Part shown: positions 8,359 through 38,514 of the stretch, in pieces
Numbering within the stretch: the first letter of the stretch is position 1
Layout of the letters: the number at the start of each line of letters is the position of its first letter
Source: a virus
DNA length: 38,895 nucleotides
Direction: 5' to 3' (one strand)
IMG/VR virus record: IMGVR_UViG_3300027872_000015
Location: 1-38,895 of that record
Translations under genes and position numbers: made by a program
The notes under the pieces: model-generated
The model's database searches: none
The model's input: only the letters and a program-made list of their open reading frames with translations
What the model was told of the DNA's origin: nothing

Positions 8359-10292
8359 TACCGTCTTCCGTCTGGTCTGAGTTCAATACGAGGTGTCCCC
8401 ATTCTCCAAAGAGAATTGCGAGTCGATGATTCCGCACGTAAAACCACAGCCCTGCCACGAAGACGAATATCAGTCTTCTCTGTATATTCTTCTACAGGCA
8501 TTGTAGCAGATCGCGCTACTTGATTACCAGTACCGGTATCCGAAATTCCACCACCCGGATAATTGATTGATTTTAGTGTCATAAGCATCTCAGGAGTTGG
8601 TGACGCCGACGAGTCCCTGAATGTTACATCGTGTAACATACGGCGAACAAACATAAAACTGTCTCCTTCGCCAATCTCGATTGGTGCGCTTTCAATATGT
8701 GCCACCAGTCCTACAGGAGTACCACCAGTTTCGTCGTCTGCGGAAACTTCATGTTCGTAGACTGTAGAGTCATCCCCGGTAGATAAGGGATAAGCATTAA
8801 ATCCTGTATCAATCCAAGCAGTTCTTCCGCCCATGTCTCCTGTGTACCAAATGCGCTGCTTGTACTCAAAACATACGTACATATCATTTTCACCACTACC
8901 TCCAACACTAGGGTAATGCCAAATAATCTCTGTAAATTTAGTGTTGACGGAACAGAAAATCTTATCAGCTTGTGACCAATTAACATCTGTCTCAATAAAA
9001 TCCCATATCGGGCATTGCATTTTTTCTATCTGTCCAGTCCATGCATAAAATCCACCAGCACCAACCCAGAAAACTATATCATCGACAACAGTTACACTGT
9101 TGATTCCGGCCATATCAACATTCATACCGAGAAGATCGATACCAAATATGAATGGAGCACCTATGTAATTCAAACTATACAAAGCAACATCAGTCCAAAT
9201 AAGAATCTCTCTACGTGTTGGGATGGCAGTTACAATCTGTGAGCCATGGTCAAGGAGAATTTCACCGGATGTGTTTGTCGTGTCGGTGATATCCCAATCC
9301 GCCAAATCTTCTTGAGCAGACCATCGAATCAACATTTTATCTTGAGAACCGCCACCGGACTGTGTTGCCCCAAGAGCGATCATGTGGCGATCTCTGGTAG
9401 ATGGAACAACCATTATGGCTGCATCGGGAGCATCAGCAGCGCCCCCTAAAGCCGTGAGCAGAACTGCGCGTGAGGATATAGAAGAACTATCATAGTATGC
9501 AATGGCTGTATTACGAGCGCATATTACAACGTCCTCCCCCCAAGAAGCGGTTGTCCACAAACCCAACTCAGAACTTGATACCGAAGAAGACTGCCCCCAC
9601 GAACCACCGCCCCAAGTACCAGCACCCCAACCGGACAAGGCAACATTTGAAACACCGGCACGAACAAGATATTCAGCCTGAACAGACGCTCCACCACCAA
9701 TGAATATAGGCTTTCCCGATACCGTAGATGTACCAATAGACGCGCCACTAGAAGCATCTATATTTGAAAGTCCCGATACTATAGACGTTCCTGCCACCGA
9801 ACCGACACCAAGTCCGGTGCAAACTTCATACTTATTATCATTAAGAATAGATGATATTCTCCGTGTGCCATTAATAACTGACCCATTAACTGTATCTGAT
9901 CCAGATATTATGACCGTATCATCAATTGCAGCGCCATGGCTTGTATGATTTACCGCTATTGTAGCGCCATGATTAGTCACCTCAATAGGGTCTGTAGATA
10001 AAGCAACCGTCAATCTTATAGGAGTAATCTCATAATCATTACCATTATATAGAACATAATAAAATTCATCTGTTCCGATACCTGTTGCAACTAACCCACC
10101 AGATTGCCAGAGATGCATGTTTCTACAAATACCAGTGAACGAAAACACTTGTGTTATAGGTGCCCACCCACCTATTCTTTCTGGGAAACCAAGCCTGAAA
10201 CGAACATTGCTACTATCTACCCAGTTCCCAGAAAGAGCATAGTCCGTAACGTCTTTAACTATACCGGGAGGGAAACTTAATTTTTGCAGCAT
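8358..10292 (-). CDS. Tail hub / packaged-DNA stabilisation protein (P22 gp10-like)
   Basis: The protein has 644 residues. The N-terminus PPGIVKDVTDYALSGNWVDS followed by NVRFRLGFPERIGGW is typical of the podovirus packaged-DNA stabilisation or tail-hub family related to P22 gp10, which closes the portal and carries the tail fibres. The body is beta-rich with regular Trp and Gly (WGAGTWGGGSWG). Residues about 168-199 hold an apparent insertion made of the same GTSTVSG-type repeat that builds the 910-residue fibre at 15320-18052. The ATG overlaps the upstream stop as TAATG. Family assignment is moderately strong and rests on the N-terminal pattern. Confidence 0.85.
   Translation of the reverse strand: MLQKLSFPPGIVKDVTDYALSGNWVDSSNVRFRLGFPERIGGWAPITQVFSFTGICRNMHLWQSGGLVATGIGTDEFYYVLYNGNDYEITPIRLTVALSTDPIEVTNHGATIAVNHTSHGAAIDDTVIISGSDTVNGSVINGTRRISSILNDNKYEVCTGLGVGSVAGTSIVSGLSNIDASSGASIGTSTVSGKPIFIGGGASVQAEYLVRAGVSNVALSGWGAGTWGGGSWGQSSSVSSSELGLWTTASWGEDVVICARNTAIAYYDSSSISSRAVLLTALGGAADAPDAAIMVVPSTRDRHMIALGATQSGGGSQDKMLIRWSAQEDLADWDITDTTNTSGEILLDHGSQIVTAIPTRREILIWTDVALYSLNYIGAPFIFGIDLLGMNVDMAGINSVTVVDDIVFWVGAGGFYAWTGQIEKMQCPIWDFIETDVNWSQADKIFCSVNTKFTEIIWHYPSVGGSGENDMYVCFEYKQRIWYTGDMGGRTAWIDTGFNAYPLSTGDDSTVYEHEVSADDETGGTPVGLVAHIESAPIEIGEGDSFMFVRRMLHDVTFRDSSASPTPEMLMTLKSINYPGGGISDTGTGNQVARSATMPVEEYTEKTDIRLRGRAVVLRAESSTRNSLWRMGTPRIELRPDGRR
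9696..9791 (-). repeat. GTSTVSG-type repeat insertion inside tail-hub gene
   Basis: Residues about 168-199 of the hub contain VAGTSIVSGLSNI, then ASIGTSTVSGKPIF. This is the same repeat logic (Gly-Thr-Ser-hydrophobic-Val-Ser-Gly) seen about 36 times in the fibre at 15320-18052. On either side the hub returns to ordinary composition. The segment is in frame and spans about 96 bases. Confidence 0.65.
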
Positions 10293-27353: not shown

Positions 27354-27869
27354 TCAGGCATCAGCAAATGGCGTGGCGATAGCGCCTGACCCTGCAAGAA
27401 CACCAAAAACAAGATACTGAGCAGTCTCCAAGGCTATGAACTCCACATAACTACCAACAATACCACCCGAAGTGGAGCCATTCATAGTGAACACATCATT
27501 CGTAGCACCAGATGTGAAAATTTTGTAAGCAGCATCAGTAACACCAATGCCTATATTACCCACAAATTTATCAGTGCCATCGGTTAAGATATCAACATCG
27601 GTAGCGGCTGTTCCAACGACAAAACGATAGACTGCACCGATATGACTAGCCACATTAGGATCGTCATCACCGGCAACTGCGTCCTTAGCACCATCCAAAA
27701 TGGTAGGAAGGGTAAATTTTCCATCGGCGTCATTGAGTTCAATAAGCCTGCCGGCATGATCCGCGAAGGTAAGGGTGGTATCCGCAGTAAGACTTATTAC
27801 GGCGTCCGGCCCTGCCGTGATAAATCCACGCATCGAACGGACTGGTCCTGAAAAAGTAGTGCGTCCCAT
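27354..27869 (-). CDS. Virion structural protein
   Basis: This 171-residue protein's ATG follows a strong AAGGAGT site. Beta-rich sequence (ISLTADTTLTFADHAGRLIE; TLPTILDGAKDAVAGDDDP, then a RFVVGTAATDVDI strand) resembles small head-fibre or surface proteins of marine phages. The gene stands alone between two terminators (27956-27987 upstream and 27320-27346 downstream). It is read from the promoter-like element at 28023-28036 if that is active. This insulation suggests tuned, high expression. Confidence 0.82.
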   Translation of the reverse strand: MGRTTFSGPVRSMRGFITAGPDAVISLTADTTLTFADHAGRLIELNDADGKFTLPTILDGAKDAVAGDDDPNVASHIGAVYRFVVGTAATDVDILTDGTDKFVGNIGIGVTDAAYKIFTSGATNDVFTMNGSTSGGIVGSYVEFIALETAQYLVFGVLAGSGAIATPFADA

Positions 27870-27955
27870 AATTCGGACTCCTTGTATGAAGATTCGATTG
27901 CCAGTCTATACAAAGTCTGCCGGGGCAGTCTGACAATCTAGTTAACCCGGATATG

Positions 27956-27987
27956 AAAAGAGGCGCGGGGGTAAAGCCCCGCGCCTC
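27956..27987 (-). terminator. Strong intrinsic terminator after the capsid gene
   Basis: An 11-bp perfect GC-rich stem (GAGGCGCGGGG / CCCCGCGCCTC) with a 6-base loop is followed on the minus strand by TTTT. It is the strongest hairpin in the window and lies 86 bases before the next start codon. Confidence 0.88.
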
Positions 27988-28018: not shown

Positions 28019-28036
28019 CACATACTTATACCACAG
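28019..28036 (-). promoter_or_regulatory. Second copy of 14-mer extended -10 element (PB)
   Basis: CTGTGGTATAAGTA on the minus strand is identical to the copy at 36579-36592, and in both cases GATC follows nine bases later. The extended -10 is good but the -35 region (TACCTA) is weak. It sits right after the capsid stop and about 35 bases ahead of a strong terminator. Confidence 0.5.
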
Positions 28037-28046
28037 ACTTCACGTC

Positions 28047-28952
28047 TTAGGTACCCGGCGATCCAAAAACCCCAAGGGGGTCAGAGGTGCCAAACGAATA
28101 CCGTTCGCGGGCCTTGTACCGGGCATTACCGGTATCGAAATCCGGGTCCATACCGGTCTTCAGGGCCGCTCTGGTAAACATTTTCATCCCGTTTGGACAA
28201 TCAGTCTTGAGGAACCAAGCATTTGTATCGGTGAGATAGTGGTTCACCGCATACCCTTCTGGGATCGAACCATTTGTACGCAAGGCATTGATATCGTTAT
28301 CAGCCGTGCCGACGCGAAGTTCGGTTTCCAGAATGCGAGTCGCCGTATACATCAGGTTGGTCGGAATACAAAGTTTCCGAGGACGTGCCGCGATCAATAG
28401 ACCACGTTCGTCTGTCCAACCAGCGATCTGAATAACAGCAGCCTCAAGTGAGGTTTCGTTCAGATCAGTGGGAGTCGCAGGTTCGTTCGAGTTTGTTCCA
28501 CCATTAACAAGGGGGTGATCAGTGGCGAAAAGTTCAACGCCATCACCGGTCAGATAGGTGGTAAACCCGTTGTTGAGAAGAGCCGCAGCCTTGACCTGCT
28601 TGGTATAAGCCATGGCGCGAGCCAGAGCCTTCGTGTACCGAGCAGAGAGCGAATCGTACAAGTTATCCTCAATTGCCTCTTCGGTAATTGAGAATCCCAT
28701 TGCAATCGTCTCATGATCATAGCGTGCAGTCCAAGCCTCCTGCGCCGTATCGTACTCGATAGCGGCACCTTCCGTCTTTACCGGGGCCTGCCCGAAGCCG
28801 GATAGCTTGGTTTCTTCTTCGAATGAGCGGTCAGAAGTTTCCGCATCGTAGATACCGACATGCTCTTCTTCATACCGCTTGTACTCCAAGCCAAACAATG
28901 CGTTTAGGCCCGGAAGCAGTTCCTTGAGGAGTTGAGTTCTTGAAATAGCCAT
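28047..28952 (-). CDS. Major capsid protein (Mu gpT-like HK97 fold)
   Basis: This is a 301-residue protein. The N-terminal segment (LLKELLPGLNALFGLEYKRY), then EETKLSGFGQAPVKTEGAAI, GFSITEEAIEDNLYDSL, the central AMAYTKQVKAAALLNNGF and RPRKLCIPTNLMYTA match the Mu gpT/HK97-type major head subunit pattern. It follows scaffold, head-associated and decoration-like genes and is followed by a promoter-like element and a strong terminator, as expected for the most expressed gene. Proteolytic maturation cannot be judged. Family assignment is good. Confidence 0.9.
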   Translation of the reverse strand: MAISRTQLLKELLPGLNALFGLEYKRYEEEHVGIYDAETSDRSFEEETKLSGFGQAPVKTEGAAIEYDTAQEAWTARYDHETIAMGFSITEEAIEDNLYDSLSARYTKALARAMAYTKQVKAAALLNNGFTTYLTGDGVELFATDHPLVNGGTNSNEPATPTDLNETSLEAAVIQIAGWTDERGLLIAARPRKLCIPTNLMYTATRILETELRVGTADNDINALRTNGSIPEGYAVNHYLTDTNAWFLKTDCPNGMKMFTRAALKTGMDPDFDTGNARYKARERYSFGTSDPLGVFGSPGT

Positions 28953-31417: not shown

Positions 31418-31442
31418 AAAAAAGGCAGCTTTCGCTGCCTTT
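31418..31442 (-). terminator. Intrinsic terminator upstream of the co-chaperonin gene
   Basis: On the minus strand AAGGCAGC-GAAA-GCTGCCTT runs into TTTTTTG. It lies 30 bases before the GroES-like start, so it limits transcription entering the scaffold-capsid genes. The 136-base gap (31389-31524) holds no other clear gene. Confidence 0.85.
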
Positions 31443-32054: not shown

Positions 32055-32405
32055 TTAAGTTTTTAAAAATCCCAAAACAATCGACCGAAATATATGATCT
32101 TTTATTTTCTGATCCTCTGATAGCAGATCATAACGAATTATACAAGGATGTGTTTTGAATTTTTCACTTTTTTTATCACCAAAAATCCATCCTTCTGCAC
32201 ATTTATGTCGTACCCAATTTTCATGACTCTGTTGTGCAGTGAAAGCGGGATTTTTTATCAGGTTCTCAACACCATCTATGGCGCTATCTTTTTGCCATTT
32301 TGGAGCATCATCCCATAATGGTTGAGAATCATCACCAATAGATAGACAAAACACTCTATTAGCATCATGACAAAGTTTTGCAATAAATGTAGTTTGGTCA
32401 TCCAT
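32055..32405 (-). CDS. RyR-domain protein
   Basis: This 116-residue protein starts at the ATG at 32405 with GAGGAA upstream, and the start overlaps the previous stop as ATGGATGA. Residues about 28-110 match the prokaryotic RyR domain: WDDAPKWQKDSAIDGVENLI, SHENWVRHKCAEGWIFGDKK, KTHPCIIRYDLLSEDQKIKD. RyR domains are known in ryanodine receptors and in phages and bacterial conflict systems, where nucleotide or small-ligand binding is proposed. Here it lies between the portal and co-chaperonin genes. The fold is a good match; the ligand is unknown. Confidence 0.85.
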   Translation of the reverse strand: MDDQTTFIAKLCHDANRVFCLSIGDDSQPLWDDAPKWQKDSAIDGVENLIKNPAFTAQQSHENWVRHKCAEGWIFGDKKSEKFKTHPCIIRYDLLSEDQKIKDHIFRSIVLGFLKT

Positions 32406-32547
32406 CGTCATCTTCCTCGTCTTCAAGGTATGCCATATCTTTTATCATATCAATAACGCTACCATACACAGTTCTTGTATTTATTGCAATGTCGTATTCT
32501 TCTTTACTCATTCTACCGCCCAGTATCGCTAGAGCGATTTCATCCAT
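32398..32547 (-). CDS. Small acidic hypothetical protein
   Basis: This 49-residue protein starts at the ATG at 32547, which overlaps the portal stop as ATGGATGA and follows GGAAAG. The same ATGGATGA overlap joins it to the RyR-domain gene. A longer start at 32580 would give 60 residues but has no clear site. It is amphipathic (MDEIALAILGGRMSKEEYDI) with a strongly acidic C-terminal tail (YLEDEEDDDG). It may be an assembly or regulatory peptide; no family is recognised. Confidence 0.7.
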   Translation of the reverse strand: MDEIALAILGGRMSKEEYDIAINTRTVYGSVIDMIKDMAYLEDEEDDDG

Positions 32548-34998: not shown

Positions 34999-36516
34999 TT
35001 AATAGTAATCTGCTTTGGCTCTTTTTCTGCCTTCATCATCGTCATCATCAAGAGTGGTACGTATCCACCCGCCTTGCCTGAACCTTGTCATCGCCATAGT
35101 GACGGTATCAACAATATCGTCATTCTCGCCAGCAGGAAACGAGGCAACCTCTTCAATAGTTTCTTGCGCCCACTTCTTTTCCAAGGGAGCGTAGACCATG
35201 CCAGAGGCAAAAATATCAGTGATTGAGTTAAGTCTTGATATTTTATCGTTGGGATTCAATTTATTCCCGCGTCCTACTGCAATATCCTGTACCGGCATAC
35301 CCATCGATCTCATCTCGAATATTAATGGATGCCCGGAAGCCCTTGCTTCAATTAGACAAATGTCGGGATTGAAATCGTTAAAATTCTCCAAGGCGCGCGC
35401 CTTTAAATCAGGAAACTCCCACTTTCCCCTAATCATATCCAATAGGATAATGGCAGCTTCTCGCTTCTTGTTCGCACCGATTTGATAAAAAACACCCCAC
35501 GTTGTGCAGGCCGAATAATCCGATCTGGTTTTTGAAGTGAAAGCCGTGTCCCATGCTTGAATAATAACTTCACATTCGGGAGCCTCGGACTTACGCCAGT
35601 CCTTCCACCAGTTCCTTTTGACAAGAGCGCCCTCCTCGGAAGTTGGATTTTGCTGGTATTGAGCGTTCCATTTGGAAACAGGAATGGATGCTTTTGTCTT
35701 TAAAAGTTCCTCAAGAGGCCAGAACTCTGGCCAGATTGGCTTGTTGTTATCCAGAATTGCCGGTAATTCAATGGTATGCCATCTATCTGCGAGTTTGTCG
35801 GACCCTTGGAGTTTGAGAAGCTGGCCGGTCAAGTCCCTTAACGACCAGCGTGTAGCAACAATGATGATCGACCCGCGAGGCTGTAGCCTCTGGCGCGGCC
35901 CACCCATATACCAATCCAAAACCCGGTCATAAACTTCTGGATTGGACACTGCGGTAACAGCTTCCTGTTCCGAATGAGGATCATCGATTATTAAAATATC
36001 AGCGCCCTTACCGGCCAATTTACCGCCGACACCGATAGCAAAATATTCACCACCCTTGTTAGTGCTCCAGCGTCCTGCCGCCTTGCTATCTGCGGATAGA
36101 GTGACACCGGGGAATATTTCCTGAAACTCTTTACTGGCAATTATATTTCTGACACGACGACCAAAGCCAACGGCCAACTCTGATGTATGAGAAGTCTGAA
36201 TTATTTTTTTATCTGGAAATTTACCCAGAAACCACGCCGGTAAATAAACCGATGCGAATTCACTTTTCGTGTGGCGTGGAGCCATGGAAACAATAATGCG
36301 GTTTTTTTCACCGGCAATGACACTTTCAAATGCTTCCGCAACGAGTGTGTGATGATGCCCCTGTATAAATCCCGGCCACATGTATTTGACAAAAGCAAGA
36401 AATTCGTCATGAGCCGCTTCAAGAAATCTCGCCCTCTCCAGCTTCTCGAACAATGCCAGCGTGGCAGCCTGCTCATCGACTGGTAGATTCTTTACGAGAG
36501 AACGAATGTCAAGCAC
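34999..36516 (-). CDS. terL: Terminase large subunit (ATPase and nuclease)
   Basis: This 505-residue protein probably starts at GTG 36516. Motor domain: Walker A-like VSMAPRHTKSE (77-86), Walker B DILIIDD (173-179) and motif III IVATRW (219-224). Nuclease domain: D323 in IIQAWDTAFTS, E390 in ICLIEARASGHPL and the late DDIVD acid pair (467-470), the RNase H-type metal site. It cuts and pumps concatemeric DNA into the prohead. An intrinsic terminator T-run ends about ten bases before the start, and only AGG is available as a ribosome site. No small terminase subunit is recognisable upstream; it may lie outside the window. Confidence 0.95.
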   Translation of the reverse strand: MLDIRSLVKNLPVDEQAATLALFEKLERARFLEAAHDEFLAFVKYMWPGFIQGHHHTLVAEAFESVIAGEKNRIIVSMAPRHTKSEFASVYLPAWFLGKFPDKKIIQTSHTSELAVGFGRRVRNIIASKEFQEIFPGVTLSADSKAAGRWSTNKGGEYFAIGVGGKLAGKGADILIIDDPHSEQEAVTAVSNPEVYDRVLDWYMGGPRQRLQPRGSIIIVATRWSLRDLTGQLLKLQGSDKLADRWHTIELPAILDNNKPIWPEFWPLEELLKTKASIPVSKWNAQYQQNPTSEEGALVKRNWWKDWRKSEAPECEVIIQAWDTAFTSKTRSDYSACTTWGVFYQIGANKKREAAIILLDMIRGKWEFPDLKARALENFNDFNPDICLIEARASGHPLIFEMRSMGMPVQDIAVGRGNKLNPNDKISRLNSITDIFASGMVYAPLEKKWAQETIEEVASFPAGENDDIVDTVTMAMTRFRQGGWIRTTLDDDDDEGRKRAKADYY

Positions 36517-36523
36517 ATGGAAC

Positions 36524-36551
36524 CTAAAAAAATGGGCTGCCGAAGCAGCCC
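36524..36551 (-). terminator. Intrinsic terminator directly upstream of terL
   Basis: On the minus strand GGGCTGC-TTCG-GCAGCCC is followed by ATTTTTTTAGG. The UUCG tetraloop and T-run are ideal. The terL start codon lies about ten bases past the T-run, so terL needs read-through or antitermination. Confidence 0.88.
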
Positions 36552-36576
36552 TAGTTTGGGAGGAAGATCAATGCAT

Positions 36577-36609
36577 CTTACTTATACCACAGGGTTGATC
36601 CTATTTCAA
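36577..36609 (-). promoter_or_regulatory. Sigma70-like late promoter candidate (PA) ahead of terL
   Basis: On the minus strand: -35 TTGAAA (36604-36609, made by the last codons of the preceding gene), a 17-base spacer, and extended -10 TGG-TATAAG (36581-36586). It contains the 14-mer CTGTGGTATAAGTA, which recurs exactly at 28023-28036. An intrinsic terminator lies about 30 bases downstream. Confidence 0.6.
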
Positions 36610-37086
36610 CTCAGACCATGCCTTGATTTTATCATCAAGGAATTTGACTTCATTATGGGTGTAGTCACCATACTTGGAAGCCAAATCCTTGACACGGGAC
36701 CAGTTCGGTTTTGTGTAGCATTTGTCCTCGATTTTCCTGTATGGCATTTCCCTCAAGAAGCCGTAAGCCAAATGAGCAGACCGGCTTTCCCTGCGAACAT
36801 TTTGTGTTCGATGCCGGTGAAGTCCGAAGTATATAGGCTCTGGGTCATGGTCCGGTTCCCTTTTCCACTTCATCACCTTCCGCTCTTCGTGCCGGATAAT
36901 TTTGGCTTCGGAAGAAAGGGACTTTATTTTAACTCGCAGATATTCTCTCACTATGCTCTCCATGTTCACTTTGTTCACATACGAAACGCTATGCGTTTCT
37001 TCTAGTGATCTTGTATTTTCTAGGTTAGGGAGGGCTACGTGCCTTGCATTCAATCGGCGTTGCCGACTTTCTATTTCGAACTTCAT
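36601..37086 (-). CDS. Hypothetical phage protein
   Basis: This 161-residue basic protein's ATG at 37086 follows AAGGAA eleven bases upstream; a later ATG at 36963 has no site. The core IYFGLHRHRTQNVRRESRS followed by AHLAYGFLREMPYRKIE is a pattern I associate with a small protein widespread in environmental phages. It is rich in Arg and Lys and has no membrane segment. It ends within the -35 box of the promoter-like element that precedes terL. Function unknown; a small terminase or DNA-binding role cannot be excluded. Confidence 0.8.
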   Translation of the reverse strand: MKFEIESRQRRLNARHVALPNLENTRSLEETHSVSYVNKVNMESIVREYLRVKIKSLSSEAKIIRHEERKVMKWKREPDHDPEPIYFGLHRHRTQNVRRESRSAHLAYGFLREMPYRKIEDKCYTKPNWSRVKDLASKYGDYTHNEVKFLDDKIKAWSELK

Positions 37087-38344: not shown

Positions 38345-38433
38345 TTCGATATTCCTTTTTCAAAAATGACCGCATTCGCTACCCTACAACATCAAGCATG
38401 TTAATTCAAGAAGAATTATATTTATTTGTTATC

Positions 38434-38514
38434 TCACTGGTCAAATTGACCACGAACAAGATAGCCAAATATTATACCTATGAATAACGGTAGAAAGTAA
38501 TATAGATATATCAT
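38434..38514 (-). CDS. Tiny membrane peptide
   Basis: This is a 26-codon frame whose ATG overlaps the previous stop (ATGA), with AGAGG just ahead. It reads MIYLYYFLPLFIGIIFGYLV followed by RGQFDQ, a single membrane helix with a short polar tail. Small single-helix proteins of this type are common in phage accessory regions. Length is close to the limit of what can be called from sequence. Confidence 0.42.
   Translation of the reverse strand: MIYLYYFLPLFIGIIFGYLVRGQFDQ

Follow-up and report, generated by a model that had tools for sequence, protein, structure and literature searches.

In the lambda pR'-tR' arrangement with Q, as in the Q21 and Q82 systems, the late genes are headed by a promoter, and polymerase leaving it has to get past a terminator, the tR' hairpin lying near +190 from the pR' start. 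HK022 put, a leader of about 65-70 nt with two hairpins before the terminator, and lambda nut let the polymerase ignore several terminators of one operon. Phage T7, which transcribes with its own polymerase, carries Tphi behind its capsid gene as a partly read-through terminator within the late operon, while lambda OOP (pO-tO) and 6S are short RNAs that arise from a promoter with a close terminator. The locus analysed here shares with pR'-tR' a predicted promoter at the late-gene head and then a terminator needing passage, but its hairpin lies about 24 nt past the expected start, its first gene is terL, and it comes with neither a Q protein of PF06530 or PF03589 nor a demonstrated QBE or pause. 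As with put and nut, the polymerase would have to ignore several terminators of one operon, yet no boxA/boxB or put hairpins are seen and the 23 nt available are too short for put. The predicted partial read-through of terminators within the late operon recalls Tphi, but the phage-type RNA polymerase family PF00940 gave no match in 17 records (the positive control was silent too). As for OOP and 6S, promoter and close terminator would yield a short RNA, here predicted to be sense to the terL leader.

The sequence is a linear virus contig of 38,895 bases (the window, that is, the whole stretch of DNA analysed) with nearly all genes on the minus strand, to which the window coordinates below refer. 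TerL and portal place the phage near Pelagibacter phages HTVC023P and HTVC027P, and also near 023Pt_psg01, DSL-LC04 and Planktothrix phage Pag-Yong1. The complete genomes of this group measure about 57-65 kb, so a third or more of the phage genome, early genes included, is probably missing from the 38.9 kb contig. HTVC023P-type podoviruses are common across the sea, and the main text of one paper on this family leaves the timing of late genes aside and makes no mention of promoters, terminators or sigma factors (PMC9599517). A Flavobacterium-1 RNA (RF02976, 90 bits) lies at 10158-10278 of the HTVC027P genome (L155), and the late region of the window encodes a 123-aa protein with an RyR domain (32055-32426, minus strand; PF02026, 5e-11).

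A promoter-like site and a terminator in front of terL

The terL gene (34999..36516; PHROG 38, E 2e-98; aligned to 17 relatives at 55-58% identity) is separated by 84 nt from an upstream gene of 161 aa (36601..37086), which has no PHROG or Pfam match; tblastn gave it weak relatives, and a search for relatives in viral contigs returned none. Promoter-like site A (36581..36609) overlaps the end of this gene (stop 36603-36601) with its -35 hexamer TTGAAA (36609-36604), followed by a 17-nt spacer that ends in TGTGG and by TATAAG (36586-36581). This is the layout of a sigma70-type extended -10 promoter, with TG one base before a near-consensus -10, and transcription would be expected to start near 36574. 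Because G stands in place of the T that is normally conserved at -7, a strict promoter scan did not list the site. Ranked with a simple sigma70 matrix that includes an extended -10 bonus, whose weights are approximate and may not fit the host, site A is second on the minus strand and no plus-strand site is better. Random sequence matched in dinucleotide composition yields 2.0 sites of this score per window on both strands, which puts the chance of such a score in the 84-nt gap on this strand at about 0.002. The promoter-like site that the sequence-only reading had placed here (TTGAAA, 17 bp, TATAAG) was borne out, coordinates included.

Terminator scans and folding agree on intrinsic terminator hairpin A (36534..36551), a 7-bp stem closed by a UUCG loop (GGGCTGC-UUCG-GCAGCCC) and followed by an A and seven T (T-run 36532-36526); the GC-rich stem, short loop and T-run are those of an intrinsic terminator of computed, predicted strength. 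It lies about 23-24 nt past the expected start, a distance that is unstructured in the fold, and the predicted short RNA (36526..36574) would measure about 49 nt with a folding energy of -14.5 kcal/mol. The GTG start codon of terL (36516) follows 9 nt past the T-run, with AGG at 36525-36523 in between, confirming the close succession of promoter, UUCG terminator and terL first read from the sequence. No promoter fits into the 17 nt between hairpin and GTG, and the best -10 past hairpin A, with a matrix score of 7.6, falls inside terL; this supports the earlier claim that terL can be made only by read-through of terminator A. An RNA switch that opens the hairpin is unlikely, as the leader before it is 23 nt long and unstructured and 10-13 kcal/mol would be needed to open either arm.

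Terminator A has company in the late region. Between 19400 and 38895 we counted 28 terminator-like sites compared to 16.5 expected by chance (sd 4.1), and six strong hairpin-plus-T elements, terminator A among them, are all on the coding strand. At least five further such elements (at 31440, 27987, 27346, 22713 and 22164) precede codirectional genes; four of these five have a start codon 18-35 nt behind them, which means that those genes too would need read-through. Internal promoter candidates are modest, with best matrix scores of 10-11.5. The best promoter-like site of the window (38415..38444, TTGACC-18-TATAAT) stands upstream and would drive five small genes, their transcription ending at terminator A. 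A 15-bp palindrome, TGGTCAATTTGACCA, occurs twice on the minus strand (38452-38438 and 3380-3366), its first copy overlapping the -35 of this site in operator-like fashion. At 37383-37314 (minus strand) lies a tRNA-like stretch with a 7-bp acceptor (GCTTGTG/CACAAGC), the T-arm GGTTCGAATTCC and an encoded CCA, which matched nothing in ARAGORN or Rfam and is possibly a decayed or armless tRNA.

A repeated box, the capsid site and relatives

Reading all gaps of the window revealed that the 14-mer CTGTGGTATAAGTA, which contains the -10 of site A (copy A, 36579..36592), recurs exactly once, as copy B (28023..28036), 10 nt past the stop codon of the major capsid protein gene (28047..28952; Pfam Phage_capsid_4, 1e-13, or Mu-like_gpT). 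At site A the stop codon of the 161-aa gene sits between the -35 and the box. Both copies lie 8-10 nt past a stop codon and 27-35 nt ahead of a hairpin, share the spacer CTGTGG just upstream of the -10, and stand directly before a terminator with no promoter after it; behind copy B, 35 nt away, this is hairpin B (27960..27987, -28.1 kcal/mol, then TTTT). A sequence as long as the window should contain a few exact 14-mer repeats by chance; for one of them to link two intergenic gaps the probability is about 0.002, a rough estimate that assumes about four chance repeats and an intergenic share of 2% at either end. Copy B makes a weak sigma70 promoter, scoring 5.4 and lacking a -35. In IMG/VR contigs CTGTGGTATAAGTA has many matches, as chance predicts, and none among the matches listed is intergenic and followed by a terminator.

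The capsid gene allowed a comparison with eighty relatives, of which 79 offered a downstream region long enough for the terminator test. Their order is capsid stop, terminator, promoter-like site and structured leader: a terminator was present in all 79 testable regions, and the better promoter score came after it in 69 of 70 non-redundant ones. The window reverses this order, for its box precedes the capsid terminator and its leader begins directly behind the terminator, so that no promoter fits there. Of 71 post-terminator regions of the relatives, 8 contain TGnTATAA with A, G or C as the next base, versus 0.29 in shuffles; this enrichment supports TGTGGTATAAG as a candidate core of promoters in these phages, even with G at -7. 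Motif discovery on the post-capsid regions returned the leader RNA and not a promoter. In one variant behind the capsid gene (L370 and L373, record G010), the terminator hairpin (GAGAGCG...CGCTCTCTTTTT) has the promoter-like TGATATAAC in its loop, and an RNA begun at that point would have no 5' arm and would evade termination.

Upstream of terL we compared 152 non-redundant regions drawn from alignment-based searches and earlier loci; the comparison of the family depends on metagenome contigs. Most relatives have no gap there (under 50 nt in 103 of 151), and the promoter-terminator-terL order appears in five of 152 regions versus 0.05 in shuffles: the window, L255, L262 and the close pair L275/L276, or about four lineages. 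These lineages are unequally convincing, since the T-run of the L276 hairpin is poor and in L262 an additional weak promoter lies past the terminator. In L031, TTGAAA-17-TATAAGTA stands about 26 nt ahead of terL; no GC-rich hairpin accompanies it, and the intergenic region is divergent and lacks a gene upstream on the same strand. L031 here matches the box CTGTGGTATAAGTA at 12 of 14 positions and has a perfect -35 TTGAAA at 17 nt. This layout is the best comparative evidence for site A as a putative terL promoter. A scan for TTGAAA-N12-TGTGN-TATAAGTA matched only the L031 contig, which speaks to the rarity of the pattern and is not an independent find, as the pattern was drawn up with L031 in view. 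Searches of the L276, L255, L262 and L031 contigs for a recurring lineage-specific promoter box gave none. L031 also has four TGTGGATAA repeats further upstream; the window box CTGTGGTATAAGTA was rejected as a DnaA box.

Other elements appeared before terL in these relatives. L262 has an apparently intact tRNA there, and in L269, L300, L307 and L255 arrays of short palindromes (e.g. AGAACGTTCT), which may be terminase binding sites, lie between terL and a promoter about 140 nt upstream. In pelagiphage-like relatives (L016, L256, L339, L340, L344 and L361) a recurrent TTAAAAAC, often as TGTTAAAAACG, stands shortly before terL and is perhaps their terL promoter.

Proposed passive read-through and its alternatives

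It is likely, judging from the sequence and its relatives, that a promoter-proximal terminator gating terL is real. As to how terL is then made, we lean, with less than even confidence, towards passive partial read-through at terminator A that would set a low terL dose. Site A would act as a late promoter whose transcripts meet the intrinsic terminator after about 24 nt; terminator A would also close the operon of the five upstream small genes; the default product, if both elements work, would be the RNA of about 49 nt; and terL and the genes behind it would receive only polymerases that read through. This presumes an active promoter, a terminator that is efficient yet incomplete, and internal promoters that supply abundant products such as capsid protein. 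A passive leak is the simplest route and fits the many intra-operon terminators. In favour of this reading we count the five other terminators before codirectional genes, which suggest that the phage regularly sets terminators where the next gene depends on read-through, along with the rank of site A, the L031 layout, the TGnTATAA enrichment, the promoter-terminator-terL order in 5 of 152 regions and the absence of matches to PF06530 and PF03589. Against it, terminators in series would all but silence the tail genes if there were no internal promoters, and the exact identity of the two boxes exceeds the need of a loose host promoter. That identity (14 of 14 positions), at two sites directly before a terminator and without a promoter after it, would be explained by promoter-borne antitermination, a possible but somewhat doubtful alternative whereby the box would be recognised by a phage factor that modifies the leaving polymerase, so that it passes the adjacent and later terminators, like lambda Q, while polymerases coming from upstream would still stop. 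The many terminators within one late operon and the recurrence of the promoter-terminator-terL order in other lineages point the same way, as does the capsid region, where the window's order would be equivalent to that of the relatives, with their promoter after the terminator (69/70), only if box-started polymerases pass. What weakens this alternative is that neither the window nor the relatives searched gave a PF06530 or PF03589 match, that the box does not recur in contigs of the other promoter-terminator lineages, and that there are only two copies, one of them a poor sigma70 promoter, and no clear pause element. A specific non-Q form, in which the factor recognises CTGTGGTATAAGTA at two late promoters and only box-started polymerases pass the terminators behind, seems rather unlikely to us; if true, it would be an alternative to the relatives' terminator-then-promoter order.

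Two readings would assign the box a lesser role. The hairpin may only end the small-gene operon, with the promoter there by chance and terL served by upstream leak or an internal promoter; chance alone would give about two sites this good per window, TATAAG lacks the T at -7 and most relatives do without promoter or gap, but the low chance of such a site in this very gap, the box repeat in a second intergenic gap (each about 0.002, the latter a rough estimate) and the same hexamer layout at the same place in L031 render this ordinary boundary unlikely. The spacing of both copies from stop codon and hairpin and the missing -35 of copy B would suit a 3' UTR element of the upstream genes, a site of RNA-protein or DNA-protein contact through which termination or mRNA decay is tuned, yet the L031 match lies in a divergent region behind no same-strand gene and has its TTGAAA at 17 nt, which makes such an element quite improbable. 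Passive read-through is our tentative choice, and if the arrangement is only leaky, it would still be a simple means to hold terL low. With a predicted promoter running into a terminator where the packaging genes begin, once more within the genome and again in other lineages, the search for late control has a concrete, testable point of entry.

Lambda Q depends on a DNA element together with a promoter-proximal pause that requires sigma (PMC7171158). By eye, the first transcribed bases at site A contain no convincing -10-like repeat and no clear pause element, and a put RNA was not found there, the 23 nt before the hairpin being unstructured in the fold. The Q families PF06530 and PF03589 had no match in the window or the relatives searched (17 and 20 records), nor had PF06323, for which the positive control was itself silent. 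Among phage sigma factors, Sigma70_r4 was clear in one relative only (G006), and we set this candidate aside. The sequence-only reading had suggested a pR'-tR'-like switch: the promoter-terminator order stands, and working like pR'-tR' is possible by analogy, but a Q system is not supported, with neither of the two families matched and no room for put. Its remark that no Q-like protein is visible carries little weight in a fragment from which early genes are probably missing.

Leader RNA behind the capsid gene

The leader that follows hairpin B in the window (27869..27950), before the gene at 27354-27869, is structured and contains a putative pseudoknot. Its predicted helices are CCGGG/CCCGG, GATTGTC/GGCAATC and TTGTAT/ATACAA, the last forming the pseudoknot directly before a GGAG ribosome-binding site. 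Mu-gpT-DE RNA (RF03012) occupies the place behind the capsid terminator in five of ten relatives scanned, while the window and about two dozen relatives have another leader type, without an Rfam match at gathering score in the window and the five such relatives scanned. In this type the region behind a conserved GGCAGAC/GGCTGAC-like anchor pairs with the bases just before the ribosome-binding site, forming a 6-7 bp helix that has 22 distinct sequences and covaries in about 25 relatives. Helices with at least six Watson-Crick pairs were present in 77% of 35 leaders, which include a few of the Mu-gpT-DE type caught by the same anchor, versus 12% of shuffles. The leader has the look of a pseudoknot, and it could regulate how the gene behind it is translated.
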